From Pelagomonas calceolata (Eukaryota; Sar; Pelagophyceae; Pelagomonadales; Pelagomonadaceae), in NCBI GenBank assembly GCA_918797485.1, contig CAKKNE010000005.1, forward strand, positions 310,001 to 374,000: 64,000 nt of DNA, read 5' to 3'. Every line of letters starts with the position of its first letter. Within the stretch, counting starts at the first letter, position 1. Position numbers and translations under genes: made by a program. Below the pieces are notes generated by a model, which had not been told where the DNA came from, did not search any database, and saw only the letters and a program-made list of their open reading frames with translations. Positions 6,726 through 52,492 of the stretch are shown here, piece after piece.

Positions 6726-8530
6726 TTAGCGGACCCATACAGACCCAACACCCAGTCGATCGAGGGCCCCCTGGATCACGGACGACGCGCGCACGCCCAT
6801 CGTGTAGGCCGGCTCGTCGTCGCGGATCTCCAGCCTTTGCTTCATGCGCCGGTTCCCGTTCAAGACTCCGCGAGAAGCCAATTCGTTCGCCGCCTCGTAT
6901 CCAGAAACAAGAGCTCGTTCCTGGCACAAGCCCTTCGCGCCGTGCTCTCGAGACCCCATGCGCACCCAGTCCCCCGCGCAGCAGACGTTCTTCACCGAAG
7001 TAGCGAGGGGCGGCCGCTTCGAGAACGAGCCAGGCGAGAACCACGACACGGCGCCCTGGTAGCGCTTGACGCAGCTATCGACGACTTTGGCGTCCTTGAA
7101 CCCAGCATAGGCCTCTGAGAGTAACTTCATCTCGAGCTCGACGATCGCTTGATCAGAAAGAGGCGCGATCGCACCCGAATTGTAAAAGTCCGCACTCAAC
7201 ACGGAACCCTGCACGTCATCATCACCCCACAACTCCTCCAAATTATCTTTCTGGAGCTGGTCCAACATAAAGAAGGTCCCGCCCGCGCCTGTGTGGAAAT
7301 CAAAATTTTACGGCGCGTTTCGCGTCGACCTCCACGCCATCGACGCGACACCTCGATGGCGTGGCGACAGCTCGACGGAACCAGAACGGCCGCGTCGTCG
7401 CCGAGAAATGACTTGGTCGATTTCCACACAGGTCTAGCACCGCGTAGCTCCGGAAACTTGGCAAAAACGCCTACTGGTGTATCTGTCTTGACAGTACGAT
7501 CGAGCCAGAGTCGCACGGCGACCACATCAATAGCGTTCAATGAGGCCGACGCTGCTAGGTCCGGCGCTGCCTTCGACAGCTCCGTAGAAGAAGCTAGGAC
7601 GCGCTTCATGCCCCCTGCACCTAAAGCGAGCACGACGGCGTCGCAGGCCACCGAACCCTCGCTCGTTTTTACGGACGTCACTTGCTCATTTTCGTACGTG
7701 AGTTGCGTGACGAACGTTCTCGGTTTTATTTTTACACCCATCTCTACTAATCGATCAGCTAGCGGCTTCAGCAAAGTCGTTTGGACCGTCCCACGAGCGA
7801 GCCATCGGACATCAAAGGACGTCTGGTGCGCCAAGGCGTAGAAGTACAACAGCTCCATCGTGACGGCTGCCGACAGTTCTTCGGGCGGCTTGAACAACCC
7901 CACCAACAAAGTAGGCCTGAGAAAATCATCGACGAGTCGCTTCGTGACGCCGACGCGCCGAAAGAGCTCGTACGCCGTCATCCGATCATAAAGGTCAAAA
8001 ATTTCCGGCGTTCTGTTGAAGTCGAGCATCGCCGCCAATAGTCCCGCGATCGACGCTCTATCTCTCAGAGGCAACCTCTTGAAGCGGTCGAACGACGCGA
8101 AGACCTGTCCGAGTGGGGAAGGTAGTTCCCTACTACCACTAAACACAGGAGCGGTGCATTCGAGACCATCGGGCGAGAAGAAACTGCTCTCCGTGAAGTC
8201 CGTGTACGCTCCCTCAATACCGAGCTCGTCTCCTAATTGATTGATGTTCGGGTAGTCCTTCCAGAAGCCCCTCATGCCGGGCTCGAACGGCTTGCCGCTG
8301 TCCGTCGTCATGCCGCTCGTCGGGTCGCCCGCATCAATCAAAGTGACGTCGCAGTTATTTTCTGCCGCAGCCAATGCGGCGCCGAAGCCGCCCCAGCCGC
8401 CTCCCACAACTACGACCTTCGGCCTTGTCTCGGCTTCGGTGGTGGTGGCCATGCGGACGACGGTGCGGCGCGGCGCCAGGCGCAGCGCGGTGGCTGTCGT
8501 CGCCAGGAGCAGTATTTGGTGTTTTGGCAT
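6726..8530 (-). CDS. FAD/NAD(P)-dependent amine-oxidase-fold protein, phytoene-desaturase-like
   Basis: Spliced length is 550 residues (exons 8530-7441 and 7288-6726). Residues 39-50 carry a Rossmann dinucleotide site, VVGGGWGGFGAA, typical of plant and algal phytoene/zeta-carotene-desaturase-like oxidases of the amine-oxidase superfamily. The N-terminus (ILLLATTATALRLAP) looks like a plastid presequence. The C-terminal FAD motif is near VKNVCCAGDWVRMGSREHGAKGL. The introner intron at 7289-7440 splits the conserved stretch ELRGAGGTFFMLDQLQ. Splicing from GT at 7440 restores it exactly in phase 1. The substrate is unknown; carotenoid-related is inference from the fold. Confidence 0.85.
7289..7440 (-). 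mobile_element. introner element a (intron), 143-bp element
   Basis: Element 7289-7431 with ends CTGTGTGGAAATC and GATTTCCACACAG. The interior holds a perfect 12-bp inverted repeat (CCACGCCATCGA / TCGATGGCGTGG). The upstream duplication is diverged (GTGCTAGAC against GCGCGGGC). The intron runs from GT at 7440 to AG at 7289, 152 nt, phase 1; no donor inside the terminal repeat gives the correct phase. Confidence 0.92.
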
Positions 8531-9069
8531 CGTAATGCGATTCGTGTCCTGTCCTCTGTGAGAGCTGTGCCCACCTAGGTGTTATTGCTGCTCTGTAGCT
8601 GTCTATTTCGCTGCTGTTGCTGCAGCTATTCGTTCGCGAGTAGCCGTAGTATCGTTTCGCGATGAATGCTTGCAAGGCGCGTCGATATAGCGGCCGCAAT
8701 CGTGGTCCAAATCCAGGCTGAGTGGATGCTTGATGCTTGTCGTCGAGGCGAGCTCGAGAGGTGCTTAGCATGCGTCTCCTAGTCAATGTAGGCCCCCTGA
8801 GATAGATAAAAGGCGCAACGCAGGACGAATTAATTACGCAATCAAATCAGGTTTTTTGGCAAGCAATTTGCTCTGAGCCAAAAAGAGGCATTACAGGCAA
8901 CAGGAGCAGTTTTTACACATCTGGCAGCCATATCACGGCCTGCTGCAACTGCTGCCTAAATTTCAAGCGTTTTGGAGCCTGCTAAGACCCAAAACCGCAC
9001 AGACTCAAAAAAGTTGCTGCATAAAACGCGCCGCGTACGCCATCGTTGGGCTAGCGCCACAGCACAGCC
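8531..9069. other. divergent promoter region
   Basis: About 540 bp between the oxidase gene (-) and the next gene (+). The segment 8800-8990 is clearly more AT-rich than the surroundings. No open frame of interest and no copy of the CTAG motif was seen. Confidence 0.5.
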
Positions 9070-9978
9070 ATGAAGCGCCTCTTCCGTCGCAAGAAAAAAG
9101 AAACGCCCCGCAAATCCAAGCCAGCGAGCATCTATTACTCGCCCGCCGCGGCGAGCACGCCTACGGCGCTGCGCAGCGAGGAAGTTGCCGTTCCGCAGAC
9201 GCCACAGGAAAGGGCGCTGGCCGACTTCGCCGCGGAGACGCCTCTCCAAACGCCACCGACGCTGCGGACGCCCGTGCGCATGCCCAACGGCGGCACTAAC
9301 CTCGATGGGGCGGACCTGCGCGACACGCTCGCGCGCGCCACCATCGACCCCGAGGCCAAGCGCCGCCTCGAAGCGTTGCTAGACCGCCTCGAGGCCGCGG
9401 AGCGCGCCGCGATGCAGACGCCCGTGAGGCGCCAGGTCTCCTGGGACCCCGCGACCGTCGAGCGACCGCCGGTCGTCAGGGACGAGTCCTGGCGCAGCTT
9501 ACAGAGGACGCCGTCGACGCCGACTACGCCTTCCAAACATTTGCTGTTAGCCTTCGGCCTCGACGACGCCGCGAATTCGCCGACCGCTAAACGGCGGCGG
9601 CGCGGCTACCTCTTCGCCGCGGGCGCCGTCGCGTTTGCTTGTGTGTTCGCCGGCGCGGCGCCGGCGCTGTCGCGCGAGTCGCGGCGCCGCGCCGCGCTGC
9701 GCCGGCCGCCCGAGCCCGTCGCGCCCTGTGTGGAAATCAAATTTCGGGCGCCCCACGCCATCGACGCATACCGGTTGATGTCCACACAGGTCGCGCCCCT
9801 GGCCAAAGACACCGTGGCGGTCATTCGAGCGGCATGTCTGACGAAGAAACGGCCGCTCGCGCGGGTCGGTTGTGCGGCGCGGCTGACAATCGCTAGATTG
9901 CGAAAGCACATCGTCAAGCTCGTCGTCCTGGTTGTCATGGGCTTCTCGCCGCTGCCGTTCCTGCTGACATTTGTCTGA
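9070..9978 (+). CDS. two-TM protein with Thr-Pro-rich N-terminus
   Basis: 278 residues after removal of the intron 9718-9789. The start is very basic (KRLFRRKKKETPRKSK). Residues 20-170 are rich in Thr-Pro pairs (PQTPQER, PLQTPPTLRTPVR, RTPSTPTTPSK), which are potential proline-directed kinase sites. Hydrophobic helices lie at about residues 180-201 (YLFAAGAVAFACVFAGAAPAL) and at the C-terminus (IVKLVVLVVMGFSPLPFLLTFV). It is not recognised. The intron is a multiple of three and has no stop, so a retained form would read through with 24 extra residues. Confidence 0.6.
   Translation: MKRLFRRKKKETPRKSKPASIYYSPAAASTPTALRSEEVAVPQTPQERALADFAAETPLQTPPTLRTPVRMPNGGTNLDGADLRDTLARATIDPEAKRRLEALLDRLEAAERAAMQTPVRRQVSWDPATVERPPVVRDESWRSLQRTPSTPTTPSKHLLLAFGLDDAANSPTAKRRRRGYLFAAGAVAFACVFAGAAPALSRESRRRAALRRPPEPVAPCVEIKFRAPHAIDAYRLMSTQVAPLAKDTVAVIRAACLTKKRPLARVGCAARLTIARLRKHIVKLVVLVVMGFSPLPFLLTFV
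9718..9789 (+). mobile_element. introner element b (intron), 64-bp element
   Basis: Element 9726-9789 lies between perfect 8-bp target duplications GTCGCGCC (9718-9725 and 9790-9797). The GT that opens the first copy can serve as donor and the AG that ends the element as acceptor, which restores the pre-insertion sequence exactly. It is a short, internally deleted form with one core CACGCCATCGACGC. Confidence 0.95.
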
Positions 9979-10049
9979 CAAGCGCATTTTATTCGGCGCC
10001 CGGCGCGCCGACGCCTAGCCTAACTTAATAATAATTAAACAAGATCCCG

Positions 10050-12457
10050 TTATTGCTTCGCCCTAAGAGCCTCCAGTTCCGCCTTCGCGGCATAAAATGC
10101 TCGGACGTCCTCGTTGTCGTCCTCTTCTTTGGGCTGCGACGACTGCGTGGGCGACACCGCGGACTGCGCGGGCGAGGCCGGCGGCGTCGCCCACGCGTTC
10201 GTCGGTTGTTTGTTGTGCCCCCTCCTTAAAACGTGGGCGTACCACTCGTCGTACTCCTTCTGCAATTTTTTCCGACCTGACTCCAACATTTTTTGCACAT
10301 GCTCGATCTCAGTTTTTAAGCGTCTCAATGATTCAAAGTTCTGCTTGTAGACCTCCTTCTCCTGGGCGATGGCGTCGATCTTCCGCTGCTCCTCCGGGTC
10401 GGCCTTTTGGAGGTCGTCCTCATTGACCACTCCCTCTATTGCTCTTTCTCTACGAATAGCCTCTATAGATTGCTTCAAATACGCAATGGCCTTCCGCGTG
10501 GCGTTGACCTTCTCGCCACACGCTTTGGCCTCACAGTATTTTTCTTTCAGGACGCGTTTGTTGTCCTCGAGGACGTGGGCTATTCTACATTTCTCGCGGA
10601 AATACAACCAAGCTCGTTTCGGATCGTCTCGCACCTCCGCATCGTCCACATAGATGGAGACACCTGCCACCTCATCGGGCAACCGATGCTTCATCCTCGC
10701 GCGGTCTTCAGCTAACTGCTCCCGCGGGTCCAGCCGTCGGACAGGTTCAGCTTTCTTCTCTGACGAAGGTGGCGAGAACTCCTTCGCCTCGCTCGCGATG
10801 GAGGGCGTCGGCGCGGTCCCGCCGCCGCGCGCCTGGCGGACCATGTTCACCAAAATGGCGATCTCGTTGTCGCGTTCTTTCAGAGTAGCTTTCAACTGCT
10901 CGTCCGTCGAGCCGCCGGTGCCTTGCGAAGCTAAAGCTTGGAGGACCATGTTCTTGAGCAGCGCGAAGCAGTCCCGGATGCGCGTTAACGTCAAGGGCGC
11001 GACGCGCAACGTCTCGTCCGGGTCCCGCGACTTCACGTAGACCTCACACGCACTATGCAACTCAGCTCTTTCCGCATCGGTCAGCTCGTCGCCCTCGCCC
11101 GCTTCGCCCTTCAAGTAGCCGATCTCCGCTCGTAATGTCGAAACTTCGCTCTTCAACGTGCTATCGTGGACGGAAGGATCCGTCTCTTCATTAAGGACAG
11201 CGTCGTTCTTCACCAGGGCCACCCGCTGCGCGAAGCGACACGTAGAGATCGACTCCTCGGTCTGGGGCTTCTCCGCGGAGCACGTCGCGATCATAACTGT
11301 TCTGCAGTTGCCTCCTAATGAATCTCTGAGAACGGAAGTCATCATACTGTTTCTATAAGGAATGTGGTCCCGAGCTTTTTTGTTCTTCTCATTCAAAGCT
11401 ACAATGACCATCTCGAGATAAAACAATGAGGTGTTGATGTACTTGGCCTCGTTGAGCGTGATGCCGTCGCTCTTCGTCTTGTGGACGCGCTCGGACCCCG
11501 CCAGGTCCACGAGATGTAATTTCGATCGGCGGACCTTGTCGGAGCCGCCCGCGCCCCGACATTCCAAAAATACGGTAAATAAACAATGGCTTCGGGACGA
11601 CGCCTGGTTCATCGCGGTTTCACTGATGGCCCGGTTCGTGTCTCCCAAGAATAACAAATTGAGGGCCTCCTCTTCACTGGTGGCGCGGTGCATGGAGAGG
11701 TTCCTGCGTGGACACGGTCTCGAAGACGCCATCGACGCGACAGCGTACTCTCCGACGCGGTCCGAAACAGCTCAAAATCGAAAACGGGACCACCCACCGC
11801 CATCATTCCTGGAGACGAGTCGCGTCGATGGCGTAAGGCTCAATATCCACGCTGCGTCGCGGACCTCAGATGGAAGTTGCCGTGCTCGTCCTCCATCATG
11901 CGCACCCGCGGCAAATCTTGCAATGCTTTCGCTCCGGAAGATTCATTTAACAAATCGAAGCCCTGCTCATTATATATTTCCATATACGACACATGGGCGG
12001 ACCAGCTACAATCCGACCGTTCCCGAAAGGCCTGGAAGATCATACTGAGAGCTCTTGGTATTATACCTCTATCCTCATATCTTTCGGAACCACCAGTAAT
12101 CGTGAAGGTCTTGCCCGAACCGGTCTGGCCATACGCAAACACGGTAGAGTTGTAGCCATCCAATGCGTTCTGGACGACGTGCTTCCCGACGCGGTCGAAC
12201 ACCTGCGCCTGCGAGATGTCCATGGGCAAGACCTGATCAAATTTAAAAGCCCACTGCGTCTTCGTGTTGTTGATGTACTCGCCGTCCTTGGTCACCGCGT
12301 CTGGGGGAATGTCCCACCTCAGACTTTGGCCCTTGCCCTCGTTGTCGCCCACGTCATAAAACTTCGACGGGTGCTTCGTCGGGCGCATCCTTAAAAACAC
12401 GGTGATGCCCTCCGATTTACGTTTCGGAGCGGCGTCATCCTTCGCCTCGGCCGGCAT
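10050..12457 (-). CDS. kinesin-9 family motor protein
   Basis: Spliced length is 748 residues (exons 12457-11865 and 11703-10050). The N-terminal motor domain has the P-loop GQTGSGKT at residues 110-117, switch I NQASSRSHC and switch II LVDLAGSER. Sequence around ALNLLFLGDTNRAISE and the C-terminal coiled coil (VRRLDPREQLAEDRARMKHR onward) fit the kinesin-9 (KIF6/KIF9) group, whose known members act in cilia and flagella. Homology supports a microtubule plus-end motor. The intron 11704-11864 joins GNFHLR to NLSMHR in phase 2, as expected for the conserved motor sequence. Confidence 0.88.
11704..11864 (-). other. intron related to introner elements (second subfamily)
   Basis: A 161-nt GT-AG intron proven by the restored kinesin motor frame. 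Its interior matches the PiT-gene intron at 60228-60345 over about 80 bp (minus strand: ACGCCATCGACGCGACTCGT, then GGTGGGTGGT, TTTTCGA, TTTGAG and TTCGGACCG). The 3' end CGTGTCCACGCAG is a decayed form of the usual terminal repeat. Confidence 0.8.
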
Positions 12458-24059: not shown

Positions 24060-25512
24060 TGCCCGGTAGGCGTAGGCCGACACCTCGACGCTGCCGAGGG
24101 CGGTCCGGTGTCTGTACAAAAAGTCCTCGGGCCCCGCCGCCCGCCGCTCGGGTTCTACGCTAAACCAGGACTTCTCGACGAGCGGCCGCGGCGCGCCGAG
24201 CGAGAACTCCGGGCGCGCGCCGAGGTCGACGACGCAGCCCCCGAGGAGCGAGTCGGCCATGTACGTATTGCGCGAGTAGAACAGCAATTTGACCGTCGTC
24301 GCGCCGCGAGCCTCGAAGGTGAGCTCCTCGTTCCAGCAGGGCGACGTCGTCCGCCGCCGGCACGCCGTCTCGCGCGTCTGATCTCCATAAACCGCCCGCA
24401 CGTAGGGGTGCGTCGCGCCGACGGCCTCAAACCCATAGCCGCCCCCAAACAGCCGCCGCGCGCGGTGCACCTTGACCACGAGTTTGTTCTTGCTCTCGTC
24501 CGGCGCGCGCGAGACTTCGACGTCGACTTGTTCGGAATCGATGGTCTCCTCGAAGCAGCTCGGCAGGAGGCAGCCCGCGGGCTCGTCGTCGACGACGACC
24601 ACTCTGACCGGAGTTTCGCGCTGCTTCTTCGCCGAGAGCCGCTGCCGTCGCGGCCTGTGTGGAAATCAAAATTTTACGGCACGTTCTGAATCGTCGCGTC
24701 GTCCTTCACGCCATCGACGCGACGCCTGATCGATGGCGTGGCGATGTCGGTTCCTCACCGCTCGACGGAGCCAGCGCGGCCACGTCATTGCCGAGAATGA
24801 CGTAGTGAGCACCTGACGCACTGGTTGATTTCCACACAGGCCGCGGCTTGCGCGTCTGCTCGAGCCGGTCGCGCGCCGCGGCGGCGGCTTGCACCTGGGG
24901 CCGCGCGGCCTCGGGCGCGACGAGGCCCGGCGGCGACGTCGGCGGCGTCGGCGTCGCAGGTGGCGCGAACGTCGCGTCCTCGAAGACGGCCGCCAGGAAC
25001 GGCGTCGCCGCGGCCTCCTCGCGCTTCCGCCGCTCCAGCGCCCGCTCGGTCGCCTTGAGCTGCTCGCGCAGCAGCGCGAGCTCGGCGTCGTCGTCGTCGT
25101 CGTCCTCTTTTTCCGCTTCCGGCGGCGCGCCCTCTTCGTCCGGCGGCGGCCGCGGCGCGCGCGCGCAGCAGACGCGTTCCGCGGCCGGCCGCGCGGCGGC
25201 GCTGTCGAAGCCCAGCAGCGTGTTTGCGAGGGGCGACCCGCTGCGGGTGGGCTTCGCCTCCTCGGTGACGACGTGCGTCTCGACGGCGGGGCGGTTCGTC
25301 GCGGGGGCGAGGGGCGGGCGCTCCATTTCCTTGTCGTCGGGACCGCCCGGGGCAGTGTCTTTTTGTTGTTGGGCCTCGGTGGGGCTGCTACCACACACAG
25401 CTCGAAGGTGCGTCCTGCGGCTGCCGCGGTGATGGCGTATGGGGGCAGGCGGGTCGAACGTGCGCTTGCGTCCCAGGAGAGCCACGCCGGGCGCGAGATC
25501 CGCCTTTGACAA
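24054..25512 (-). CDS. C2-domain protein
   Basis: 421 residues from exons 25512-24848 and 24654-24054. The N-terminal half is low complexity with acidic (EKEDDDDDDAE) and coiled-coil stretches (LALLREQLKATERALERRKREE). Residues about 260-400 form a C2 fold: VDVEVSRAPDESKNKLVVKVHRARRL, THPYVRAVYGDQTRET, PCWNEELTF and SLLGGCVVDL. Acidic Ca2+ ligands look incomplete (THPYV rather than SDPYV), so lipid or protein binding may be Ca2+-independent. The introner intron joins TRK to PRRQRL in phase 2 with a GC donor. An internal start at MERPPLAPA is possible. Confidence 0.75.
24655..24847 (-). mobile_element. introner element c (intron), 185-bp element, GC donor
   Basis: Element 24655-24839 between duplications GTCGCGGC and GCCGCGGC (7/8). 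The interior holds an 11-bp inverted repeat CACGCCATCGA / TCGATGGCGTG. On the gene strand the first copy begins GC, giving a GC-AG intron of 193 nt that restores the frame in phase 2. It is the longest copy and shares its right half with copy a. Confidence 0.92.
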
Positions 25513-25610: not shown

Positions 25611-28033
25611 TCATTTCTTCATGACGTTCCGCTGGAGCCACTCCAGCGCGCCCGCCTGCCACCCGACCGGCATGCCGAACACGGATCCGGGCGCGGCGTC
25701 CTCGATCCGCGTCGCGAGGCGCACGCCCTGGTCGATGGCGCGCTTGGCGTCCAACTCGCCGGCGTGCTCGGCACCGCCGATGGCATACACTGGAAATTTT
25801 GGATCATTCCGGAGCTCGCGGAACAAGTCGTCGACGGACGTCTGGCCCGCGCAGAGCACGACGTCCGTCACGTCGAGGACGCGCTCCGCGCCGGCCACTT
25901 CGATGCGGAAACCGTCGGCCTCGACTCGTTTATACGTCACGCCGCGCAGGAAGTCGACGCCGCGCTGGCGCAGCGCCTTGCGGTGAATCCAGCCCGTCGT
26001 CTTGCCCAATCCGGCGCCGAGCGGCGTCGCCTTGCGCTGGAGCAAGTACACAGTCCGCGGCGGCGCCACATTCGATGGCTCAGCTAAACCCGAGCCGCGC
26101 GGCGCGGTGTCGACGCCTGTGTGGAGATCAAATTGTCGCGGTGCTTCGAATGAGCGTACCCAACACATTGGTTGCTTTCTACACAGGTCGACGCCCCACT
26201 CGCCGTAGAAGTCGTCGCCCGAGCGGTGCGTGAGGAACTCGGACACGTCGAATCCAATCCCGCCCGCGCCGACGACGGCGACGCGCGGGCCGACTTTTGT
26301 CGCGCCCGAGAGCACGTCGGCGTACGAGTGGACGCGGACGTTCGCCGACGACGCGAGGCCCTCGACGACCCGCGGCCGCACGCCCGTCGACACCACTACC
26401 CTATCAAAGTCTTTCACGGTCGACGCATCCACATACGTATTCAACCGCACATCCACAGAATGCACGTCGAGCATCGTGCGAAAGTAGCGCAGCGTCTCCC
26501 AGAACTCCTCTTTGCCCGGCACCGCCGCGGCCAGCAGGAACTGGCCGCCCACCCGTTCCGATTGCTCGAACAGCGTCACGCGGTGGCCCCGTTCACCGAG
26601 AGCGCACGCCGCGCTCAAGCCCGCCGGCCCGGCGCCGACGACGGCAACCTTCAGAGGCGTCGCCGTCCTCGTCAACTCGAGCGACGTCTCGTGGCCGGCG
26701 CGCGGGTTGACCTGTGTGGATATCGAATTTCGGGCGCCCCACGCCATCGACGCGACGTCATCCTCGTAATTGCGTCTGCTCGACGGCGTTCACTGTTTGA
26801 TTTCCACGCAGGGCTTCACCAGGCACGACACGGGCATCATCTTGAAGGTATGATCTAAACAAGCCTGGTTGCAGGCAATGCACGTATTGATCTCATCCTC
26901 CCTTCCATGAAAGGCCTTCTCGATAATGCTAGAGTCGGCGAGGAAGGGCCGCGCCATGGAAACGACGTCCGCACCTTGCTCCAGCACGTCTTCGCACGTT
27001 TCGGCGCTGTTGATGCGGTTCGTGGCGCACATGAGCGGTGCTTGCCCGTACTTTGATAACAAAGCTTCTCGCACATTAGTAGTCGCAAACGCGAACGCAC
27101 CTCTAGGAACACAAGTGGCGATCGTCGGCACCCTAGCTTCGTGCCAGCCGATGCCCGTGTTGAGGATGTCCACACCACAAGCATCCAACAAATGAGCTAG
27201 CTCGACGACCTCGCCGAAGGCCATGCCGTTTTCAACTAATTCCAGCATGGACAGCCGGAAGACCACCGCAAAGTCCGGGCCCGCGGCTTTTCTTACGGCT
27301 TGTACCACGTCTAGAGCTAAACGACTCCGGTTCTCGAAGGACCCGCCATACGCATCTCCCCGTTGATTCGTGCGCTCGGCCAGGAACTCGTTTATCAGAT
27401 AACCCTCCGAGCCCATGATCTCCACACCGTCGTAGCCGCAGCTCCTCGCTGCGCTGCCGTGCGCGCAAAGTCGTCTATAGTAGATTGTACGTCTTTTTCT
27501 GACAAAGCCCGCGGCGTGACCACGTTAATTGGTGCCTTCTTCTTGGACGGAGCGACGGCGAAGGGGTGGTAGGCGTACCGTCCCGCGTGTAGTATTTGCA
27601 AGGCGATCTTACCGTTGTTCTCGTGGACCGCATCAGTAACGACTTTGTGCTCCTCGGCCTCGGCTACAGTCGACATCTTGCCCGCGAGCGGCAGCACCCA
27701 GCCTTCCCTATTGGGAGCCACGCCTCCGGTAACAATGAGTCCAGCACCGCCTTTCGCGCGTTCCGCGTAGAACGCGGCCATTTCTTTGAGGCCTCTGTGC
27801 TCTTCCAAGCCGGTGTGCATCGAGCCCATCAAAGACCGGTTCCTGATTTCAAGGCCGCACGGCAAGGTGAGGGGACTGAACAAGCTGAGTGCGTGGCGTG
27901 CGGCTGCTCCGCGGTCGAGGAGCAGAAGGGCGCGTCGTCGTCGTCGCTGCGCGGCAGGGCGGAGAGCGGCCTCGCCGTTGCGCGCCGGCCGCCGACGGCG
28001 GCGAGGCGGCGGAGCATTGTCGACTATCGACAA
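25611..28033 (-). CDS. 2,4-dienoyl-CoA reductase, FadH type (OYE barrel + FAD/NAD(P) domain)
   Basis: Three exons, with introns 26712-26819 and 26117-26194. The N-terminal half is an old-yellow-enzyme FMN barrel (LILQILHAGRYAYHPF-like region, YDGVEIMGSEGYLINEFL). Next come the iron-sulphur cysteines CIACNQACLD ... CLVNPRA. The C-terminal half is FAD/NAD(P)-binding (VAVVGAGPAGLSAACALGERG, VAVVGAGGIGFDVSEFL). This is the bacterial FadH layout, which reduces dienoyl-CoA in unsaturated fatty-acid breakdown. One base appears missing near 27440 between DDFARTA and SCGYDGVEIM. The first 55 residues are basic and may target an organelle. Confidence 0.88.
26117..26194 (-). mobile_element. introner element d (intron), 70-bp element, GC donor
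   Basis: Element 26117-26186 between perfect 8-bp duplications GTCGACGC (26109-26116, 26187-26194). On the gene strand the copy reads GCGTCGAC, so the intron (78 nt) would start with GC. It is a multiple of three without stops, so retention would add 26 residues. Confidence 0.92.
26712..26819 (-). mobile_element. introner element e (intron), 100-bp element
   Basis: Element 26712-26811; diverged duplications GTGAAGCC and GTCAACCC (6/8). Splicing from GT at 26819 to AG at 26712 (108 nt, phase 0) restores the family-conserved CLVNPRA next to the FeS cysteines. A donor inside the terminal repeat would insert four residues there. Confidence 0.95.
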
Positions 28034-32575: not shown

Positions 32576-32754
32576 GCTTGGTCCCGTGCGGAAATCAAAT
32601 CTTCTCGCATGCGGTTGCTTCATGGACTCCACGCCATCGACGCGACGTCTGCTCGACGGCGTGGCGGTGTGGGTCTTACGCCCCTCGATTCAGCCATCGT
32701 TGTCGCCTAGAAGTGAGCCCGACTCACTCGACTCACCGCTTGATCTCCACACAG
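32576..32754 (+). mobile_element. introner element f, 171-bp element
   Basis: Element 32584-32754 with a decayed left end (CCGTGCGGAAATC) and an intact right end (GATCTCCACACAG). Duplications GCTTGGTC and GCGGGGTC (6/8). It holds the inverted repeat CACGCCATCGA / TCGACGGCGTG. The AG survives only in + orientation, so it should be the acceptor of the + strand exon that begins at 32755, with a GC donor. Confidence 0.85.
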
Positions 32755-33039
32755 GCGGGGTCGGTCATCGCCTCGGGGCTGGTCGTGACGGCGGTCGACG
32801 CGGCGGCCGCGGCGATGAACGTCGACTCGCACTGGGGTTTCGTGCTGGTCGCCGCGGCAGTCGCCTCGGGCTTGACGGCCCTCATCGTCTTTGCTCTCGA
32901 GCGGCTTGTGCCGTCCTGCGCCGCGCCGCGCCTGCCGGTGGCCGAGCCGGTGTACTCGGCGGACGCGGTCTACGACCAGGTACGCGAGTCGACCGTACTC
33001 GCTGTGGACCACGCGAAGCACGCGGTGGGCATGGCCTGA
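32755..33039 (+). CDS. terminal exon of a membrane protein
   Basis: 95 codons starting directly after the introner AG, in phase 0, ending at a TGA. A transmembrane helix (WGFVLVAAAVASGLTALIVFALERLV) follows a small-residue stretch (SVIASGLVVTAVDAAAAAMNVDS). Third-position GC is high only in this frame. The upstream exon is not resolved. The frame just before the element (QARLCSTNV) would join in phase but overlaps coding sequence of the minus-strand coiled-coil gene. Confidence 0.5.
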   Translation, partial: AGSVIASGLVVTAVDAAAAAMNVDSHWGFVLVAAAVASGLTALIVFALERLVPSCAAPRLPVAEPVYSADAVYDQVRESTVLAVDHAKHAVGMA

Positions 33040-39148: not shown

Positions 39149-41673
39149 ATGGACTCCATCCTGCAGAACCTCTCCCACAAAGCAGAGCCATGCGCACAGA
39201 AGGATAGTACCGTGGCGCCGCCGCCGCCGCCGCAGCGCAAGCTGACGATCCGCCTCCCGGTTGGGTCGCATAATTCGTGTGAAGCCGCCGCCTCGACCGC
39301 GCCCCAGAAGGACGTGGACGCCATCCTGAGGAACCTGGCCGGCTACCGGCCGCCGCCGCCCGGCCCGCAGCTCTTTGGGCCGCCGCCCAAGGCCCGCGCC
39401 AAGCCCACGCTTCAGCGGACGACGCCGCGCGCGCCCGACGCGGGCCCGCTGCCGTCGATCCTCGAGCTGCTCGAGCAGCACGTCGCCGCCCGCCCGACGA
39501 GCGAGGCGCCGCCGACGGCCGAGGAGACCCTCGCGGCGCTGGGCGCGCCCGGCGACGATGAGGCGCCGCCGACCAGCGCCGCCGACGGCCGAGGAGGCCA
39601 TGGAGGCGCTGGGCGCGCCCGGCGACGATGAGGCGCCGCCGACCGCGCCGCCGACGACCGAGGAGGCTATGGAGGCGCTAGGCGTGCCCCGCTACGTCCG
39701 AGACGCTCTGCGGGCGCCGCCGACGGCCGAGGAGGCTACGGAGGACGTCCGAGACGCCCCGGCGCCGCCGCCGCCCGCGCGGAAGAAGCGGCGGCTGAGC
39801 GGCTTCGGCAGCACCCCGAAGTTCCCCGCGAAGCTCTTCGAGATGGTCTCGCACCATTCAAATGTTATTACTTGGGAAAACGGCCGCCTCGTCGTCCGCG
39901 ACCAGGCGCGGCTCTGCGCCGAGCTCATGCCGCGGTACTTCACGGTCAAGACCGGGACGGCGACCTTCCCGTCCTTCGCGCGCCAGCTCAACTACTACGG
40001 GTTTTCAAGAGCGAAGACGGGCGCGGACCTCGCCTACGTGCACCCGGGCGTGGCGAAGGTCGAGGACCTCGCGACGCTGGCCCGCAAGGACGAGCCGGCG
40101 CGGAAGAAGCCCAAGGCGTCGGAGGCCGTCGAGGTCGTTTCTCTGGAGGAGCACCGCCGCGTCGTCGCGGAGCGCGATATGTTAAGGGAGGAGGTGTCAA
40201 AGCTGCGCAAGGCCCTGGCGCAGGCCGAGGCCGCGCTGCCAATCCACACGGCCGAGGCCGTCCGCCAGGGCGACCGGCCCGATCCACGCCTCTACTTAGC
40301 CGACTCAGCAACCAGTAAAGATGTCTGCGCCTTTTGTGGGAAGCATCATGGCACGCCGAACGCCGACGGCACGCTCGAGGGTGATTTGCTGTTCCCGCCC
40401 TTCCGCGGGAACGATGGGAAGCCGGTCTGGGTCCACGCGCAGTGCGCGTTGTTTAGTGCCGAGGTCCACGGCGAGCGCGAGGGCGACCTGTACAACGTGT
40501 TGGCTGCGGTCAAGCGGGGCCGGTCGTTGAAATGCGCCGCGTGCGGCGAGCGCGGCGCGACGGTGGGCTGCGGCGAGAAGCGCTGCTCGAAGTCCTTCCA
40601 TTTGAGATGTGCTGCGGCCCACGGGCTGTTGCAGGGCGAGACGACGTTCCACTGCCGGAAGCACGCGAGTTGGCCGGACGCCGTGCAGTGCGACCGCTGT
40701 TTTAAATGGAGAGCCTGGGACTGTGTGGAAATCAAATTTCGGGCGTCTTACGCCATCGACGCGACGTGCTTTCCGTAGCTATCAACGCGACTTTGTCCCC
40801 GTGGCCGCGTCGGCTCGATGATGTGGAGGTTCAGGATAACCTAACTCACTGTTGGTTTCCACACAGGCCTGGAAGACCGTAGATAAAACGACGGGGCGGC
40901 CCGCTCCTTTGCCTGAGGGCGACTGGTTCTGCGAGCTGAACGAAGATACGACTTGTAATAGTTGTGAAGTGAAGGCATCAATTACGTCGCCCGAGGCCGT
41001 CGAGCCCGACCGACGGGGCGACGCGGTCGCCATTGAGGGTCAAAAGTGCGCGTTCTGCCTGTCTCCGTCGTTATCCTTACTTGAATCCAAGGCGCTCGGC
41101 GGTTTGTGCACGAGGCCACTGAAAGACGGTCCCAAAAGTGTCTTCCACCACGCGGCCTGCCTGGCGCTCGCGCCGGAGGTCGTGCGGTCGGGCGGCCACG
41201 TCTTCCGCGGGCTGAGCGCGTTGCGGCGCGGGCGCCTGCTCAAGTGCTTCTCCTGCGGGAAGCGCGGCGCCACGGTGGGTTGTGGCGTGAAGGAGTGCCC
41301 GCGGAGCTTCCACGCGCCCTGTGCGTTATTCAGATCTGGAGGCTGCGTCGACGAGGGCAACGGCGAGTCGTCGAACGTCTTCTACTGCAGCGCGCATCGT
41401 AACAAAGGGACGGACCGGTGGGTGTCGTGCAGCCACTGTAGCGCGTGGCGGCGCTGGAAGGGCCCCGTCGACGCGACGGGCGAGCCGTTGCTGGCGCCCG
41501 ACGCGCAGCCAACCTGTGCGGAATTAGGATCGGCCTGCGACGCGCCTCCGGACGAGCTCCAGGGCGGCGAGGTCGAGCTCACTCTCGAGGAGGGCGTCGC
41601 CGCCGCGGCGCCGGCCGTCGCGCACCCGCTCCTCGGCGCGACGCGGCGGGCGCCGCTCGGCGCTAGCGTGTAG
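39149..41673 (+). CDS. HSF DNA-binding domain + two [extended PHD - CW] modules
   Basis: About 785 residues. The N-terminus has repeats of PPTAEEAMEALGAPGDDEA. A heat-shock-factor DNA-binding domain follows (KFPAKLFEMVSHH ... LMPRYFTVKTGTATFPSFARQLNYYGFSR), then a leucine/charged coil (VVAERDMLREEVSKLRKALAQAEA). Next is an extended PHD finger (VCAFCGKHH ... CAACGERGATVGCGEKRCSKSFHLRCA...HCRKH), a CW finger (VQCDRCFKWRAWKTVD...WFCELN...CNSC), a second extended PHD (CAFCLSPSL ... CFSCGKRGATVGCGVKECPRSFHAPCALF) and a weaker CW-like end (WVSCSHCSAWRRW). A nuclear chromatin reader that binds DNA directly is likely. One frame shift lies in the N-terminal repeats near 39570. Confidence 0.82.
39505..39745. 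repeat. tandem repeat encoding PPTAEEAMEALGAPGDDEA
   Basis: Four related units of 45-70 bp built on GAGGCGCCGCCGAC and GGCCGAGGAGGC. The frame shift in the HSF-PHD-CW gene lies in this repeat, as expected for slippage or an assembly error. Confidence 0.7.
40713..40866 (+). mobile_element. introner element g (intron), 146-bp element, GC donor
   Basis: Element 40721-40866 between duplications GCCTGGGA and GCCTGGAA (7/8). Splicing from GC at 40713 to AG at 40866 (154 nt, phase 0) restores a CW zinc finger (KWRAWKTVD). It has a single core TACGCCATCGACGCGACG. Confidence 0.93.
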
Positions 41674-43444: not shown

Positions 43445-43453
43445 GGGGCAGCC
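43445..43453. promoter_or_regulatory. GGGGCWGCCCC-type motif
   Basis: GGGGCAGCC, 22 bp upstream of the start codon at 43423. Confidence 0.35.
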
Positions 43454-46291: not shown

Positions 46292-46351
46292 AGAACCTTC
46301 GCTCGCTTTCGCGTCGCTCCTCGAACCCTGTATAAATCACATATCTTAAAC

Positions 46352-47896: not shown

Positions 47897-48610
47897 ATGG
47901 CCGAGCTCGACGCCATCCTCGGCAATGATGAAGGCGGCATGGACATGGACATGGGCGGCACTAATCAAGGCGCGCCGCGGCGGAACCCGGCGTACGAGCA
48001 GCTCTTAACCGCGTGGCGGTCGGAGCAGGCCTGCCCGGAAGTGCTGCCCTGGCGCGGCGATTTAGTAGATGCTTTATTAGATGCGGCGGAGCAGCAGGAG
48101 GCCATGGTCAAGGCGACGGTCGAGCAAGGGGGCGACGTCGACGAGTGCTTGTTTTCGGCGCCGTTGTACGAGAGCGAGCTCGCGCGGTGCCGTTTTGTGG
48201 TTGGTTCGTACGTGCGCTGTCGACTACGTAAATTAGAAAGACAGTGCGGGTACATCATCGCGGACGACGACGCCTACGGTCGTCTCTCAGACGCCGAAAA
48301 GACGCACGCCGTCAAGTACTTGGATTTGATCGAAAAGCACCACCGCGCGTCGTTACTCGAAGATCTACCGGAACCCTTCCGCGACGAGCGCAAGGACGGC
48401 GACGAGGCCTGCCCCGAGGTGTTGGCCAAAGCTATTTCCAAAGCTCCGGCGTTGGACCGCTTCGTCTTCATCAAGGCGAACAAGGACCTGGGGGACGTGC
48501 AGATCGATAGTAGTGGCGAGACGGCGTTCATCTCGAAGGGCGACACGCACGCGCTGCGCTACGGGCCCGTGCGGGATTATGTGCTGGACGGGAGCCTGAG
48601 CCTCGTCTAA
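47897..48610 (+). CDS. SLD5: GINS complex subunit Sld5
   Basis: 237 residues. It is part of the Cdc45-MCM-GINS helicase that unwinds DNA at replication forks. Family features: ACPEVLPWRGDLVDALL near residue 48, the helical A-domain with ELARCRFVVGSYVRCRLRKLERQ, LSDAEKTHAVKYLDLIEKHH, and the small B-domain at the C-terminus (DRFVFIKANKDLGDVQIDSSGETAFISKGDTHALRYGPVRDYVLDGSLSLV). The length is close to other Sld5 proteins. Single exon; start at MAELDAILG. No oddities. Confidence 0.9.
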   Translation: MAELDAILGNDEGGMDMDMGGTNQGAPRRNPAYEQLLTAWRSEQACPEVLPWRGDLVDALLDAAEQQEAMVKATVEQGGDVDECLFSAPLYESELARCRFVVGSYVRCRLRKLERQCGYIIADDDAYGRLSDAEKTHAVKYLDLIEKHHRASLLEDLPEPFRDERKDGDEACPEVLAKAISKAPALDRFVFIKANKDLGDVQIDSSGETAFISKGDTHALRYGPVRDYVLDGSLSLV

Positions 48611-48794
48611 GTATCTTATGGTTCTCCCCCGGGCTGGTCGACGCGACGCCCTGGAGCCGGCCGCTTGCGGTACCTCCTCCAAACTGGACGTCCCGAACTG
48701 ACGCATCACCGCGCCCGACCGGTCAAAACCGGCGGCTGGTACGCCACGGTGACGCCGGGGTCCCGTGCGAGAGGGCTAGCCCAATAAGCAACAT

Positions 48795-50162
48795 TCAGCT
48801 AAAACCCATGGCGCTGCCGGTGCCATTTCGACCTCCGCCCGCAACACGACCGTAGTCCTTCACAAATCCAAAAGCGCCGACCTGCGTCAGGACGACGTGC
48901 GCTAGCGCCGCCGTGCCCGCTGATGTCGAGATCTTCTTCACCAAGTCGGCCTTGGCGCCGAAGACGCGTTTCCCCTCGTGGCGGCGCGTTAGGTGCGCGC
49001 CGCCGTCCTGATGTAATAATGACAGTTCTAAGGCAGCCACCTTGGCCGTGGAATCGGGCGACGGCGCCGCGTAGTGCACGTATAAAGATACAAATCCGGG
49101 CCGCTCCTTCTTGATACCGCCCTTGTAGAGGTCGAGGGACCAGGGCGCGGGCCCGGGCGGTCTATAACGAGCGCCTTGCCGGAAGCCGGCCGGCAACGAG
49201 GACCAGCGTTCGACCCTCCAAGTGACGACATGCACGTCCCGCCCATCGGACGTCTTTCTAAGTGAAGCGCCCGACTTGAACGTCTTGGGCGACTCCGGAG
49301 CTTGTATACCTCGTAGTCGCGCCAGGTAGCCGCGCGACTCGCCTTCCGCCGGTGTTAAGCCGGCCGCATCTAATCTACCTTGCCGTTCTCGCTCCGTCCA
49401 GAGCGCCTTGTGCGCCGCAGGGGCACTCGAGACGTCATTTTCCGGAAACCTTTCTCTAAACCAGTCCGTGAACGCGGGCCCACCGACGCTCGTGAAGCCG
49501 CCCTCCCGCTCGATGTACGACGCCATGGCCGCGTCGTCGGCGGCCAACGCTCTCGCCTTTAATTGTTGCCACGACGGCGCGTCGGCCGGCGGCCGCAGCG
49601 CCCTTCGATGAGAGTCGTCCCGCGCCCTTCTAGGTGCCGGGGGCGGCTGTGTACGTCGAGGCTGCGCACTGACAGCTCGTCTTGGAGGTGGAGGCTGTTG
49701 CGCCAGACGGGCCGCCGCGTCTCGGGACAAGTCCCGGATGCGAGGCGCATCATCACCACGCGCAGAACGACGACCTCTTTCCCTATGTTTGCCCGCCCGC
49801 TTCTCGGCCTCCCGCCGCTCCGCATACGTCATTTTCTTCTTCGCAGGTTCCTTCTCCCTCGCCTCCTTCATGGCCAACCAAGAACTTCGGGCGGACGTGT
49901 CCCGCGTCGACGGTCGTGATGCCCTTGCTGATGATGAATAATCTTTGGAGTCACTTCTTTCGCGAGACTTCGACCGAAAGAACGACGCCGCGCGCGCCAC
50001 GCGAGACTTCGACCGCGCCGGTCTTTCTGAAGACCCGAGCGTCTCGTCGACCATGGCGGCAAAAGCAGCATCGTCCAGGGAATCCTTGCGCTTCTTCTCC
50101 TTCGATCTATGTAAAGCTAAGTCGAACGAGAACTTGCGGCGGGGGCTGAGCGCGCGGAGCAT
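48795..50162 (-). CDS. protein with C-terminal MATH/TRAF-like domain
   Basis: 455 residues. The first 170 residues are Ser/Arg/Lys-rich (RSKSRVARAASFFRSKSRERSDSK), and a Pro/Arg stretch follows. Residues about 190-270 (WQQLKARALAADDAAMASYIEREGG) are helical. From about residue 300 a beta-rich region (VHVVTWRVERWSSLPAGF...PWSLDLYKGGIKKERPGFVSLYVHYAA...ALELSLLHQDG...KRVFGAKADLVKKI) matches the layout of MATH domains, which bind partner peptides. There is no RING or BTB domain. The function is unknown. Confidence 0.65.
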   Translation of the reverse strand: MLRALSPRRKFSFDLALHRSKEKKRKDSLDDAAFAAMVDETLGSSERPARSKSRVARAASFFRSKSRERSDSKDYSSSARASRPSTRDTSARSSWLAMKEAREKEPAKKKMTYAERREAEKRAGKHRERGRRSARGDDAPRIRDLSRDAAARLAQQPPPPRRAVSAQPRRTQPPPAPRRARDDSHRRALRPPADAPSWQQLKARALAADDAAMASYIEREGGFTSVGGPAFTDWFRERFPENDVSSAPAAHKALWTERERQGRLDAAGLTPAEGESRGYLARLRGIQAPESPKTFKSGASLRKTSDGRDVHVVTWRVERWSSLPAGFRQGARYRPPGPAPWSLDLYKGGIKKERPGFVSLYVHYAAPSPDSTAKVAALELSLLHQDGGAHLTRRHEGKRVFGAKADLVKKISTSAGTAALAHVVLTQVGAFGFVKDYGRVAGGGRNGTGSAMGFS

Positions 50163-50596
50163 GGTGCCGTCGATTTCGTGTGACGCTGCGGCGGCGGCGT
50201 GTCTCACAGGTGGTCTCCGCCAGCCGTCCGCGCGTCGGCGGTGTTTAATTGGTTCTCTGAAAGCACCGGGTGCAAGTGAGAGCCCTTTGTTGCGGTGCTC
50301 GGTGGCAGCGCTGCGTGGTCTGGCGTTTTATGGCTTCTCGGGGCCTCGCACCGGGCACGATTTGGAGCTCAGCGGTGGATGCTGGAGGTCAATTCCCGCC
50401 GATTTTCGAGCACCGCTCAAGCTAGCGGTATGTAAGACACTAGGCACAGGTTTTTCCGGCCGCATCCGTCGCGTAAAGCCTCTAGGCTCGTCGCAGTGGC
50501 CGTGCAAGCGACGCAGAGAACGTCTGCTGCGACTTCGTTGCTGGGGCAGCGCCCACGAGCATCCATACGCGGCGGGGCAGCACCCCCACTCAAAGC
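50163..50596. other. divergent promoter region
   Basis: 434 bp with the CTAG-type motif at 50422-50443 and two GGGGCAGC boxes at 50543 and 50574, the latter 14 bp before the UIM-SAM start. Confidence 0.5.
50422..50443 (+). promoter_or_regulatory. CTAGCGG...CACTAG motif, copy E
   Basis: CTAGCGG, TA, TGTAAG, A, CACTAG; 22 bp, 153 bp upstream of the start at 50597. Confidence 0.5.
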
Positions 50597-51217
50597 ATGC
50601 CGCCGAGGCGACAGCGGCAGCGCAAGGCAGCCACGCCCGCGGCCACAAACGGGGCGCCGCCGCGGCCGGCCGCGCCCAGCAGCGAGGACGAATTACTGCG
50701 ACGGGCCATGGAGGAGTCGCGCCGGACCGCCGCCGCCGCGCCGCTCTCGGAGGACGCCGAGCTGCAGCGCGCCCTCGCCATGTCGGCGCAATCTTACACG
50801 GCGGAGCAGAGCCAGCGCAAGGCCTACGAGCGCTACGCGGCGCCGGCGGGCGCGGTGCGGGCACCGCGACACGCCGCGCCGCCGCAGCCGCCGGCCAGCG
50901 CCGACCTGGCACCCCTCCACGCGCTGCGGCAACGGGCCGAGCAGGCCGTGTCCGAACGACGGCAGCGCGAGGCCAAGCTCGCCGAGTTGGCAAGACGGCC
51001 GCCGGCCATCCAAGCCGCGCCCGACGTCGCGCGGCTCATGGACGAGCTTGGTCTGTCGCACTTCCTGCCGCTACTCCTCGCCGAGGAGGCCGCGGACATG
51101 GAAACGTTGATATGTCTGGAAGCAGGAGACCTGAAGGATCTGCTCCTGCCGCTCGGGGCGCGGACGAAGCTTTTGTATGCGCTCAAGCACCCGGACTGGC
51201 GGCCCAGGTATAAGTAA
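50597..51217 (+). CDS. UIM-UIM-SAM protein
   Basis: 206 residues. Two ubiquitin-interacting motifs lie near residues 29-45 (EDELLRRAMEESRR) and 51-66 (EDAELQRALAMSAQ), both with the acidic-hydrophobic-Ala-x-x-x-Ser pattern. A charged helix (LRQRAEQAVSERRQREAKLAEL) leads to a C-terminal SAM domain (VARLMDELGLSHFLPLLLAEEAADMETLICLEAGDLKDLLLPLGARTKLLYAL). A ubiquitin-reading adaptor that can oligomerise through SAM is the natural reading. Confidence 0.8.
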   Translation: MPPRRQRQRKAATPAATNGAPPRPAAPSSEDELLRRAMEESRRTAAAAPLSEDAELQRALAMSAQSYTAEQSQRKAYERYAAPAGAVRAPRHAAPPQPPASADLAPLHALRQRAEQAVSERRQREAKLAELARRPPAIQAAPDVARLMDELGLSHFLPLLLAEEAADMETLICLEAGDLKDLLLPLGARTKLLYALKHPDWRPRYK

Positions 51218-51250
51218 CAACAGATTAGCTTAGATACAGGACGGCGACGC

Positions 51251-52492
51251 CTAGAACGCCGCGAGCGACGACTGCGACGCCGTCCGTAATGGCGGCGCGG
51301 CGAAGCGCTCGCGCAGCCACCGCACATAAGGCCGCTCGACGTGGACCTCGTACAGCGCCGCCAGCATATACAGCGTCAACGCGAAGGCCACGAAATTCTC
51401 CGCGTGATCGCTCGTGGGCAGGCCGAGGCCGTAGAAGACGGCGTGGACGGGCCACTGGAAGAGGTAGACCTCGAAGGAGCACTTGCCGATTGATGACAAA
51501 GCGGGATGGGCAAAGAGTTTTGATGCTTTCGAGGCTGCGGCCGTGTCGCGCGCCGCCGCCCACAGAAATACGGCGAAGAGCGGCGCTAGCCCGTGGTCGT
51601 ACAGGACCTCGCCGTGCTCGCGGTAGTCCAAGTGCGGGTTCGGGACGAGGAGCACGGCGAGCGTTATGATGAAGACGGCGCCGTCCGCGAGCCAAGCCGT
51701 GTTTTCTCTTGACGAGCGAGCCGCGAGCTCGGCACTGACGCAACCCAACAGAAAATCCGCCAACTGCGCCGGCGGCCAGAGGTAGAGCGCCGTGTGGGCG
51801 GAATTGTTGAAGTAGGCGCCCGCTCTCAAGCCACCGGAGACGAATAGCAACGCTATCAAAGACGGTACGATTGCGAGGACGACCGCCACGACCATCAAAT
51901 GCCGTCGCTCGTAGAGGAACGGGTCGTAGAGCACCGGATAGAGGAGCCACGACGGCGCAAGGGCCGCGACCGTCCAGGACTGGCCGTCGGGGCACCACCG
52001 GTTCGGGGACCGCCACCTGTGTGGAAATCAAGTCGCGTCGATGGCGTGGGGCGCCCGACATTTGATTTCCACACAGAACGCCACGGTTCTACGAGAAACG
52101 CACAAAGCGTCAGGTGCATCGCGTCCAGGTCGCCGTTCCCACCCAGATACAATAGGATAGCGGACACGCCCATGGCCAGCCACACCGCCAGGAGCACGCG
52201 GCCGAAGCGCCGCCCGTACCAGCGCTTGGCGTCAGGCCAACGATTCGCCGATTGCGAGAATTTACCGCGCCGCCCAGTGCGTCACAAAACCGCTCAGCAC
52301 GATGAAGTAGTCCACGGCGCAGTTGCTCCGCCAGAGGCTCTTTACCAACGGGCCGTCGCTCGAGTGCGGTAAGAAGTGCTGGCACACGATCCAGAGCGAC
52401 GCTAACCCGCGCGAGCCGTCAACAAAAGGTAGGCGCTTGCGCGGCGGCTGGGTCTCGGCGGTGGGTTGTTGCGGGATGGCGTCGTAGGCCAT
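51251..52492 (-). CDS. acyltransferase-3 family membrane protein
   Basis: 375 residues from three exons (52492 to about 52271, about 52224-52085, 52016-51251). It transfers acyl groups to sugars or other extracytoplasmic molecules. LPFVDGSRGLASLWIVCQHFLPH at residues 21-43 is the family's N-terminal Arg/His signature. FIVLSGFVTHWA follows, then WYGRRFGRV and the conserved PNRWCPDGQSWTVAALAPSWLLYP. About eight to ten hydrophobic helices are present. The first intron (about 46 nt) fits best with a GC donor at 52270. The second is introner h. Substrate unknown. Confidence 0.82.
52017..52084 (-). mobile_element. introner element h (intron), 60-bp element
   Basis: Smallest copy: element 52017-52076 between duplications ACCGCCAC and AACGCCAC (7/8). 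Splicing from GT at 52084 to AG at 52017 (68 nt, phase 2) restores FLVEPWRSPNRWCPDG. Core CGCGTCGATGGCGTGGGGCG lies in the reverse orientation relative to copies b and e. Confidence 0.94.

Follow-up and report, generated by a model that had tools for sequence, protein, structure and literature searches.

The origin of new introns is a long-standing question, and the 64-kb stretch of the Pelagomonas calceolata genome analysed here (the window) raises it directly: are the short elements with inverted ends that recur along it spliced as introns, and where would their splice sites come from? We consider it very probable that they belong to one family of non-autonomous DNA transposons (MITE-type introners) in which the upstream copy of the target site duplication (TSD) serves as the donor, the AG at the end of the element serves as the acceptor and splicing restores the target. 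On this reading the family displays insertion, co-option of a donor and exact restoration of the target clearly, in an alga that is abundant in the ocean and has a compact genome assembled to chromosome scale.

Plain mismatch counting identified eight pairs of 13-bp terminal inverted repeats (TIRs) in the window, starting at 7289, 9726, 24655, 26117, 26712, 32584, 40721 and 52017 (copies a to h), thereby confirming all eight copies and the shared ends proposed in the initial annotation. The elements are 60-185 bp long with 0-3 mismatches in total per TIR pair; the reversed-sequence control gave no pairs in the window and none in 200 kb of C1. An 8-bp duplication had been claimed for every copy, which holds at 6 or more of 8 positions for seven of the eight (perfect in b and d, as claimed, with 7 matches in c, g and h and 6 in e and f), while that of copy a has decayed to 2 of 8. 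Searching the genome with the 13-bp repeat returned 878 forward and 843 reverse exact matches, where the reversed pattern used as a control yielded 1 and 0, and a similarity search with one copy gave 783 first-look candidates, 40 of which were scored. TSDs match at 6 or more of 8 positions in 67 of 91 distinct copies. The search admitted TIR pairs spanning no more than 300-420 bp, and within that limit these 91 copies measured 48-264 bp each, leaving no room for a transposase of their own. The density of one element per 8 kb given initially stands for the window, with its eight copies over 64 kb, and is local; as a genome figure it is overstated, C1:1-200000 holding nine copies or one per 22 kb.

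To locate the splice sites, five rules were compared by bit score against homologues for copies a, d, e and g, the homologues having been fetched with the query spliced under the rule R1. R1 is the rule originally put forward, with the donor at the first two bases (GT or GC) of the upstream TSD, the acceptor at the AG ending the element and the target restored, and it ranked top of the five in all four copies. Copies d and e lie on the minus strand of the same FadH-like gene. For copy e (26704..26819; element 26712-26811, 100 bp; putative intron 26819..26712) R1 gave 353.0 bits against 334.0 for the next rule, a lead of 19, and for copy d (26109..26194; element 26117-26186, 70 bp; putative intron 26194..26117) 285.6 against 269.6, a lead of 16. 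The junction at copy e yields CLVNPRA under R1, initially asserted to be the only rule to do so, and CLVNP stands at the same place in the MMETSP protein P0001 and in 14 of the 15 other homologues listed, the fifteenth, P0017, giving no match to the search word CLVNP. P0001 is transcriptome-derived, is 100% identical to the query over 96% of the query, spans both sites and lacks copies d and e exactly as R1 predicts; this is evidence at the protein level, and the strain behind P0001 might lack the insertions.

Copy g (40713..40874; element 40721-40866, 146 bp, plus strand) lies in an HSF/PHD/CW-zinc-finger gene, where its putative GC-AG intron, 40713-40866, falls inside the zf-CW domain; R1 led here by 19 bits (405.4 against 386.5). 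In a FAD/amine-oxidase-like gene, copy a (element 7289-7431, 143 bp, minus strand, perfect TIRs) gave 313.1 bits against 302.3, a lead of 11, with the donor set 9 rather than 8 bases out. A 567-aa frame appears only with this GT donor one base further out, at 7440, 9 bases outside the element, in agreement with the predicted junction 7440/7289 (putative intron 7440..7289). Copy h (52009..52084; element 52017-52076, 60 bp, minus strand; putative intron 52084..52017), in an acyltransferase-3 gene, is inverted relative to most other elements, and its frame is broken both by retention and by exact excision of the element; R1 gave 56.1 bits in a Pfam comparison against 54.1 for a rule that adds 12 nt. 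Recovery of the reading frame had been announced for six copies. Homologues bear it out for a, d, e and g, and the frame together with the Pfam domain does so for h. Copy b (TSD 9718-9725, element 9726-9789, 64 bp, TSD 9790-9797, plus strand; both TSD copies GTCGCGCC; putative intron 9718-9789) is uninformative because its frame stays open whether the element is spliced out (283 aa) or kept (307 aa). Copy c (24647..24847; element 24655-24839, 185 bp), in a C2-domain gene, is likely on the minus strand with a GC donor and an intron at 24847..24655, but its strand is ambiguous because the plus strand offers a GT donor too. No gene evidence was found for copy f (32576..32762; element 32584-32754, 171 bp, plus strand, GC donor), which has lost the AG at its donor-side end (it begins CCGTGC). 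Together, P0001 for d and e and the homologues for a, d, e and g support, at the protein level, the view that these elements are probably spliced as introns, and we infer the same for individual copies beyond transcript coverage.

R1 was further supported by two population tests on DNA from the same genome. In all 67 copies with a TSD of at least 6 of 8, GT or GC (GY) begins the duplication as read from at least one end of the element, against 31.6% of random local 8-mers; it does so on the left alone in 24 copies, on the right alone in 24 and on both sides in 19. GY was present at neither end in 4 of the 91 copies, all with TSDs of at most 3 of 8. Among 54 copies that could be oriented, the exonic and intronic TSDs never differ at base 1, and bases 1-2 are GT or GC in both, whereas later bases of the duplication drift between the two. 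A rough motif rule placed 18 introns sense and 23 antisense to the element. GC donors, as read from the DNA, are predicted in 19 of the 54 oriented copies and so look common in this genome.

The other test concerned the AG that R1 requires at one end only. In copies that have a TSD of at least 5 of 8 and GY at a single side, the terminal AG was destroyed by substitution on the donor side in all 15 classifiable cases and never on the acceptor side, against 5 and 8 for control substitutions at position 7 (Fisher p 0.0004). The donor side thus loses the AG that the acceptor side keeps. The loci sampled were 20 of 124 genome hits for position 2, 20 of 34 for position 1 and 20 of 57 for the control, drawn in listing order within contigs and not at random. 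Of the 20 position-1 loci, seven that have G at base 1 were left out, since five of these resemble GT expansions (CT then an extra GT) in which the AG is intact; of the remaining two, L116 had GY on both sides and L126 on the substituted side alone. A partner end at no more than 3 mismatches was missing for 4 of 20 hits at position 2, 3 of 13 at position 1 and 2 of 20 controls, and GY at both ends made a further 5, 3 and 3 copies unclassifiable. The asymmetry is weaker without the TSD filter (10 donor side vs 1 acceptor side at position 2, 5 vs 2 at position 1 and 6 vs 9 in the control; Fisher p 0.014), the three counterexamples, L109, L125 and L132, having TSDs of 3, 2 and 1 of 8. Loss of the donor-side terminal AG offers a simple DNA-only test of the splicing end that could be used in any introner family with symmetric ends.

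Several other explanations were weighed against these data. The element could carry both splice sites itself, with a GT donor at TIR base 5 and 12 nt (TSD plus CTGT) added to the mRNA. Such a rule keeps the reading frame, has a GT-AG pair and has a precedent: for an Aureococcus sp. MAG, labelled pelagophyte, Gozashti et al. 2022 (PMC9860276) describe an introner family, family 4, that has an 8-bp TSD like the present family and is reported to carry both splice sites and to lengthen the mRNA by 12 bp, of which the TSD contributes 8 and the element 4. Here, however, it scored below R1 in four of four copies (by 19 bits in e, 16 in d, 19 in g and 147 in a) and by 2 bits in copy h, P0001 lacks the four extra residues it predicts at d and e, and it offers no reason for GY in 67 of 67 copies; we regard it as highly improbable. 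We give equally little credence to the idea that the copies are plain MITEs lying by chance in genes, retained or gene-disrupting. Copies b and d would indeed stay open in frame if retained, but e, g, a and h would each introduce a stop or shift the frame, P0001 is without d and e, and where the TSD is verified and GY is one-sided, only the donor side has lost its terminal AG. Spread by reverse splicing of intron RNA would account for copies that behave as introns, yet the 8-bp TSDs, the TIRs and the occurrence of both orientations point to insertion of DNA and make it the least probable of the alternatives.

A preference of the transposase for GY targets, in place of survival of splicable insertions, is unlikely but deserves more weight than these; it competes with a single step of the proposed mechanism and leaves splicing unchanged. 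In its favour, GY is found in 67 of 67 copies, of which a minority are tied to genes, and its presence at both ends in 19 of 67 (28%) exceeds the share expected if one end were forced and the other followed the 17.6% background. Against this, independent choice at each end predicts some copies with GY at neither (0 of 67 were seen), GY adjoins either element end about equally (18 vs 23), and the asymmetric loss of the AG requires splicing whatever the origin of GY.

Under the favoured reading, a transposase acting in trans would insert the element and duplicate 8 bp of target. Read outward, the 13-bp TIR ends in ...CACACAG at both ends, so that either orientation could supply a 3' splice site, and where the duplicated target starts with GT or GC on the gene strand its upstream copy would become the 5' splice site. 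The spliceosome would then remove the upstream TSD together with the element; the downstream TSD would stay in place and the original exon sequence would thus be restored. Insertions without GY would be lost by selection. The origin of the copies by transposition, the action of a transposase on the family and the selective loss of non-GY insertions are what we infer beyond the GY-AG architecture that the DNA shows. More tentatively, and with somewhat less than even confidence, we suggest that the TIR has a dual use at both ends, as transposase end and as 3' splice site, such that either orientation makes an intron; that the host copes with GC at roughly one third of donors, insertions lacking a GY donor on the coding strand being purged almost fully; and that the element is under selection for splicing, the decay of the donor-side AG recording which end is used.

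In the introner elements of Aureococcus anophagefferens treated by Huff, Zilberman and Roy in 2016, the target duplication reportedly gives one splice site. Introners of Aureococcus and Micromonas are reported to show a preference for nucleosome linkers. As second-hand sources describe them, the Aureococcus anophagefferens elements resemble the present family in their pelagophyte host, in being non-autonomous DNA transposons with TIRs and direct repeats, in carrying one splice site and co-opting the other from the duplicated target, and in occurring in both orientations; to that extent the match to the 2016 model drawn in the initial annotation is borne out, the likeness being one of described features. 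Their characteristic length is given as about 210 bp (PMC9481584). The same source, in 2022, had already indicated introners in Pelagomonas calceolata from intron lengths, with a peak at about 210 bp (PMC9481584), so the novelty initially claimed was overstated; the longer copies found here, at 182-204 bp plus an 8-bp TSD, fit that peak. The passages of PMC9481584 on Pelagomonas calceolata introners give no TIR, TSD or splice rule, all of which the present family displays. Gozashti et al. 2022 (PMC9860276) also describe an introner of Symbiodinium microadriaticum, which likewise has TIRs but comes from a different lineage and has a 4-bp TSD in contrast to the 8 bp here. Novelty is limited, since Huff, Zilberman and Roy (2016) had put the mechanism on record in another, related genus of pelagophytes, and our analysis adds evidence and detail and not a new principle, namely GY in all copies with good TSDs and the consistently donor-side loss of the AG.

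A profile search of the whole genome (PF05699, PF21787, PF10551, PF18758 and PF12762) returned no transposase bounded by the TIRs of the family. The sole transposase-type match genome-wide was a hAT dimerisation domain (PF05699) in a single-copy 721-aa frame. The 9 kb around this frame held no right-hand end with at most 4 mismatches beyond it, and a short, degenerate element-like pair (4 and 2 mismatches, 88 bp) about 5 kb away does not bound it. MULE (PF10551) and Merlin/IS1595 (PF12762) had no matches in the whole genome; P-type RNase H (PF21787) and KDZ (PF18758) also had none, an absence that means little since control genomes gave none either. In 264 kb, TIR pairs 300-12000 bp apart with a TSD of at least 6 of 8 were limited to one, formed by the outer ends of the short copies c and d. 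In one scan with one exact word, the 15-mer CTGTGTGGAAATCAA matched 43 stretches of viral contigs, once each. In these stretches 16 loosely matching pairs of ends lie within 5 kb of each other, which we read as chance because their 8-bp flanks match at only 0-4 of 8 positions.

A branch-point role for the TTGAT within the TIR was considered and is unsupported: within the terminal 16 nt, YTRAY occurs at the acceptor end in 41 of 48 copies and at the donor-side end in 47, 24 of these 48 copies having been picked by a pattern that includes TTGAT. In the 24 copies not picked by end pattern it occurs at 19 acceptor ends and at all 24 donor-side ends. Over the outer 15 bases, mismatches are equally distributed between the sides, with 17 on the donor side and 18 on the acceptor side in a set of 25 oriented copies drawn from the window, C1 and similarity-picked loci.

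All eight introner-like elements proposed in the initial annotation were recovered (copies a to h, starting at 7289, 9726, 24655, 26117, 26712, 32584, 40721 and 52017), their terminal inverted repeat (TIR) pairs being located in the window and none in a reversed-sequence control. The copies are 60-185 bp in length; one end of each is CTGTGTGGAAATC and the other its reverse complement, and mismatches across the two ends total 0-3 per copy. The flanking direct repeats, taken as 8-bp target duplications (TSDs), match at 8/8 positions in b and d, 7/8 in c, g and h, 6/8 in e and f and 2/8 in a. Five loci elsewhere in the genome (L118, L121, L130, L131 and L133) display an apparent additional GT in the TIR (CT, then GTGTGTGG) with the AG intact, seemingly a small dinucleotide expansion.

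The nuclear genome of P. calceolata is reported as six contigs which together with the plastid and mitochondrion total 32.4 Mb at 63% GC, with a 393-kb duplication common to contigs 1 and 5 (PMC9481584); the assembly searched comprises 8 contigs and 32,445,274 bases. The window (C5:310001-374000) falls within this duplication, since its TIRs recur in contig 1 (C1) at offsets of 36-50 bases (e.g. window 7289 corresponds to C1:317333). TIR positions correspond between the two contigs and no presence/absence difference was seen among the matches listed in the places compared. The genome search with the 13-bp terminal repeat suggested in the initial annotation returned 878 exact matches in forward and 843 in reverse orientation, against 1 and 0 for the backwards pattern. 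A further nine TIR pairs were identified in 200 kb of C1, eight of them with a TSD of at least 6/8. The proposed density of one element per 8 kb holds for the window and not for the C1 stretch, at one per 22 kb. The 17 copies in these 264 kb have 13 exact ends between them; extrapolated to the 1,721 exact ends genome-wide, this ratio gives roughly 2,000 copies, an estimate that counts duplicated regions twice.

To compare splicing at individual copies we scored 300 bases each side of the junction against profile HMMs of homologues (23 for d and e, which lie in the same FadH-like gene, 7 for g and 32 for a, all obtained with a query spliced by R1), leaving out the MMETSP protein P0001. Five rules were compared: R1, with the donor at the TSD start and the acceptor at the AG ending the element; R3b and R3a, with the donor at TIR base 5 and 3 respectively; exact excision; and retention. 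R1, the rule originally put forward, scored best in all four copies (e, 353.0 vs 334.0 bits; d, 285.6 vs 269.6; g, 405.4 vs 386.5; a, 313.1 vs 302.3), the donor of copy a being placed 9 bases outside the element, since a distance of 8 disrupts the reading frame; homologues show LRGAGGTFF at this join. R1 splicing of copy e yields CLVNPRA, as previously stated. P0001, which derives from the MMETSP transcriptome project and matches 96% of the query with 100% identity, contains neither element, its sequence being CLVNPRAG at e and GEWGVDTAPR at d. For copy g we infer a GC-AG intron within the CW zinc finger; KWR is directly followed by the next conserved residues in 7 of the 8 homologues found, the eighth lacking a match to the search word. 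In the acyltransferase domain at copy h the margin was small (R1 56.1 vs R3b 54.1 bits) and the frame is broken by retention and also by exact excision. The frame at copy b is open whether spliced or retained, copy c lies in a C2-domain gene on the - strand yet has a GT donor on the + strand, and a search for gene evidence around copy f in the window found none. Copy d (26109-26194), if retained, is in frame and stop-free and adds 26 codons, so that retention in the mRNA would not prevent translation. Three close relatives found as protein matches (P0130, P0002 and P0003; 82-91% identity) have predicted uninterrupted frames across the sites. Their contigs, 3.6-9.8 kb long, may provide empty sites for a, d and e if they represent genomic DNA.

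We assembled 91 distinct copies. The window supplied 8 and C1 another 9, while 20 came from loci similar to copy c and 54 from loci selected for a substitution at one end. GT or GC (GY) was present at the TSD start on at least one strand in 67/67 copies with a TSD of at least 6/8, while 31.6% of random local 8-mers have GY at either end (n = 200,000). The sets not chosen by end substitution gave 15/15 (window and C1) and 19/19 (chosen by similarity, two of these being a tandem pair with shared TSDs). Four of the 91 copies have GY at neither end, each with a TSD of 3/8 or less. Fifty-four copies could be oriented by a TSD of at least 5/8 and GY on one side only, with inferred donors of 35 GT and 19 GC (14 and 11, respectively, among the 25 copies that were not chosen by end). 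Between the exonic and intronic TSD copies, base 1 differs in none of the 54, base 2 in 4, exclusively as T/C exchanges, and bases 3-8 in 4-11. The way the copies were oriented presupposes GY in the intronic TSD copy but makes no such demand on the exonic one. The presence of GY in 67/67 would be explained by the loss of insertions that could not be spliced; a target preference of the transposase is a less likely origin of the pattern.

The ends of the element, read outward, both carry AG, of which only one can serve as acceptor, so under R1 AG-destroying substitutions should survive on the donor side alone. This pattern was first seen, before sampling, in six copies (C1:40642, 86633, 104385 and 185201, window copy f and locus L074), all outside the sampled regions; four would have entered the later count, the exceptions being C1:40642, with GY at both ends, and L074, without a TSD. 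We sampled 20 of 124 genome matches with base 2 changed, 20 of 34 with base 1 changed (13 used) and, as a control, 20 of 57 with base 7 changed. Among copies with a TSD of at least 5/8 and one-sided GY, 15 AG-destroying changes fell on the donor side and 0 on the acceptor side, compared with 5 and 8 for the control (Fisher p 0.0004). Without the TSD filter the counts were 10 vs 1 for base 2, 5 vs 2 for base 1 and 6 vs 9 for the control (p 0.014); the three contrary copies (L109, L125 and L132) have TSDs of 3, 2 and 1 of 8, making their boundaries doubtful. In all 26 AG-lost copies for which a partner end was identified (16 + 10), that opposite end still carries AG.

These observations are most simply explained by a non-autonomous DNA transposon whose insertion duplicates 8 bp of target, both ends of the element providing a 3′ splice site and the duplicated target lending the 5′ splice site. 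By a rough motif rule, the introns of 48 one-sided copies run sense to the element in 18 and antisense in 23, with 7 unassigned, so it is through the symmetry of the ends that orientation becomes irrelevant. No support emerged for the TIR acting as a branch point. Genome searches for MULE, KDZ, P-type and Merlin transposases found none, although PF21787 and PF18758 gave no match in control genomes either. The hAT dimerisation domain gave one match, in a single-copy 721-aa open frame. This frame (locus L093 5381-7543; C4:4499880-4502042, - strand) has a domain score barely over the Pfam cut-off and lacks bounding TIRs of this family in the 9 kb read. Within the 264 kb, TIRs with up to 2 mismatches all belong to short pairs save one each in the window and C1. 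Viral contigs contain 43 single 15-mer matches, and the flanks of 16 loose pairs near these agree at 0-4 of 8 bases.

The mechanism is already known. Huff, Zilberman and Roy (2016) are reported to have found it in both Micromonas and Aureococcus (as related in PMC12403724, PMC10228655 and PMC7789003). In P. calceolata itself, introners had been indicated from intron lengths (PMC9481584). Gozashti et al. 2022 (PMC9860276) describe several modes of splice-site recruitment, including that of the Pelagomonas element, and looked for transposase-encoding partners. In a limited literature search the 2022 genome paper (PMC9481584) was the only one found on introners in Pelagomonas or Pelagophyceae; the anatomy may be published, and Supplementary Note 3 of that paper may hold the TIR and TSD.

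A tandem pair of elements was observed at locus L078 301-714 (C2:3731640-3732053), with three identical 8-bp TSDs (TCCGCGAC) and 15/203 positions differing between the two elements. As the splice rule would leave a middle exon of zero length, the pair should splice as a single intron or recursively.
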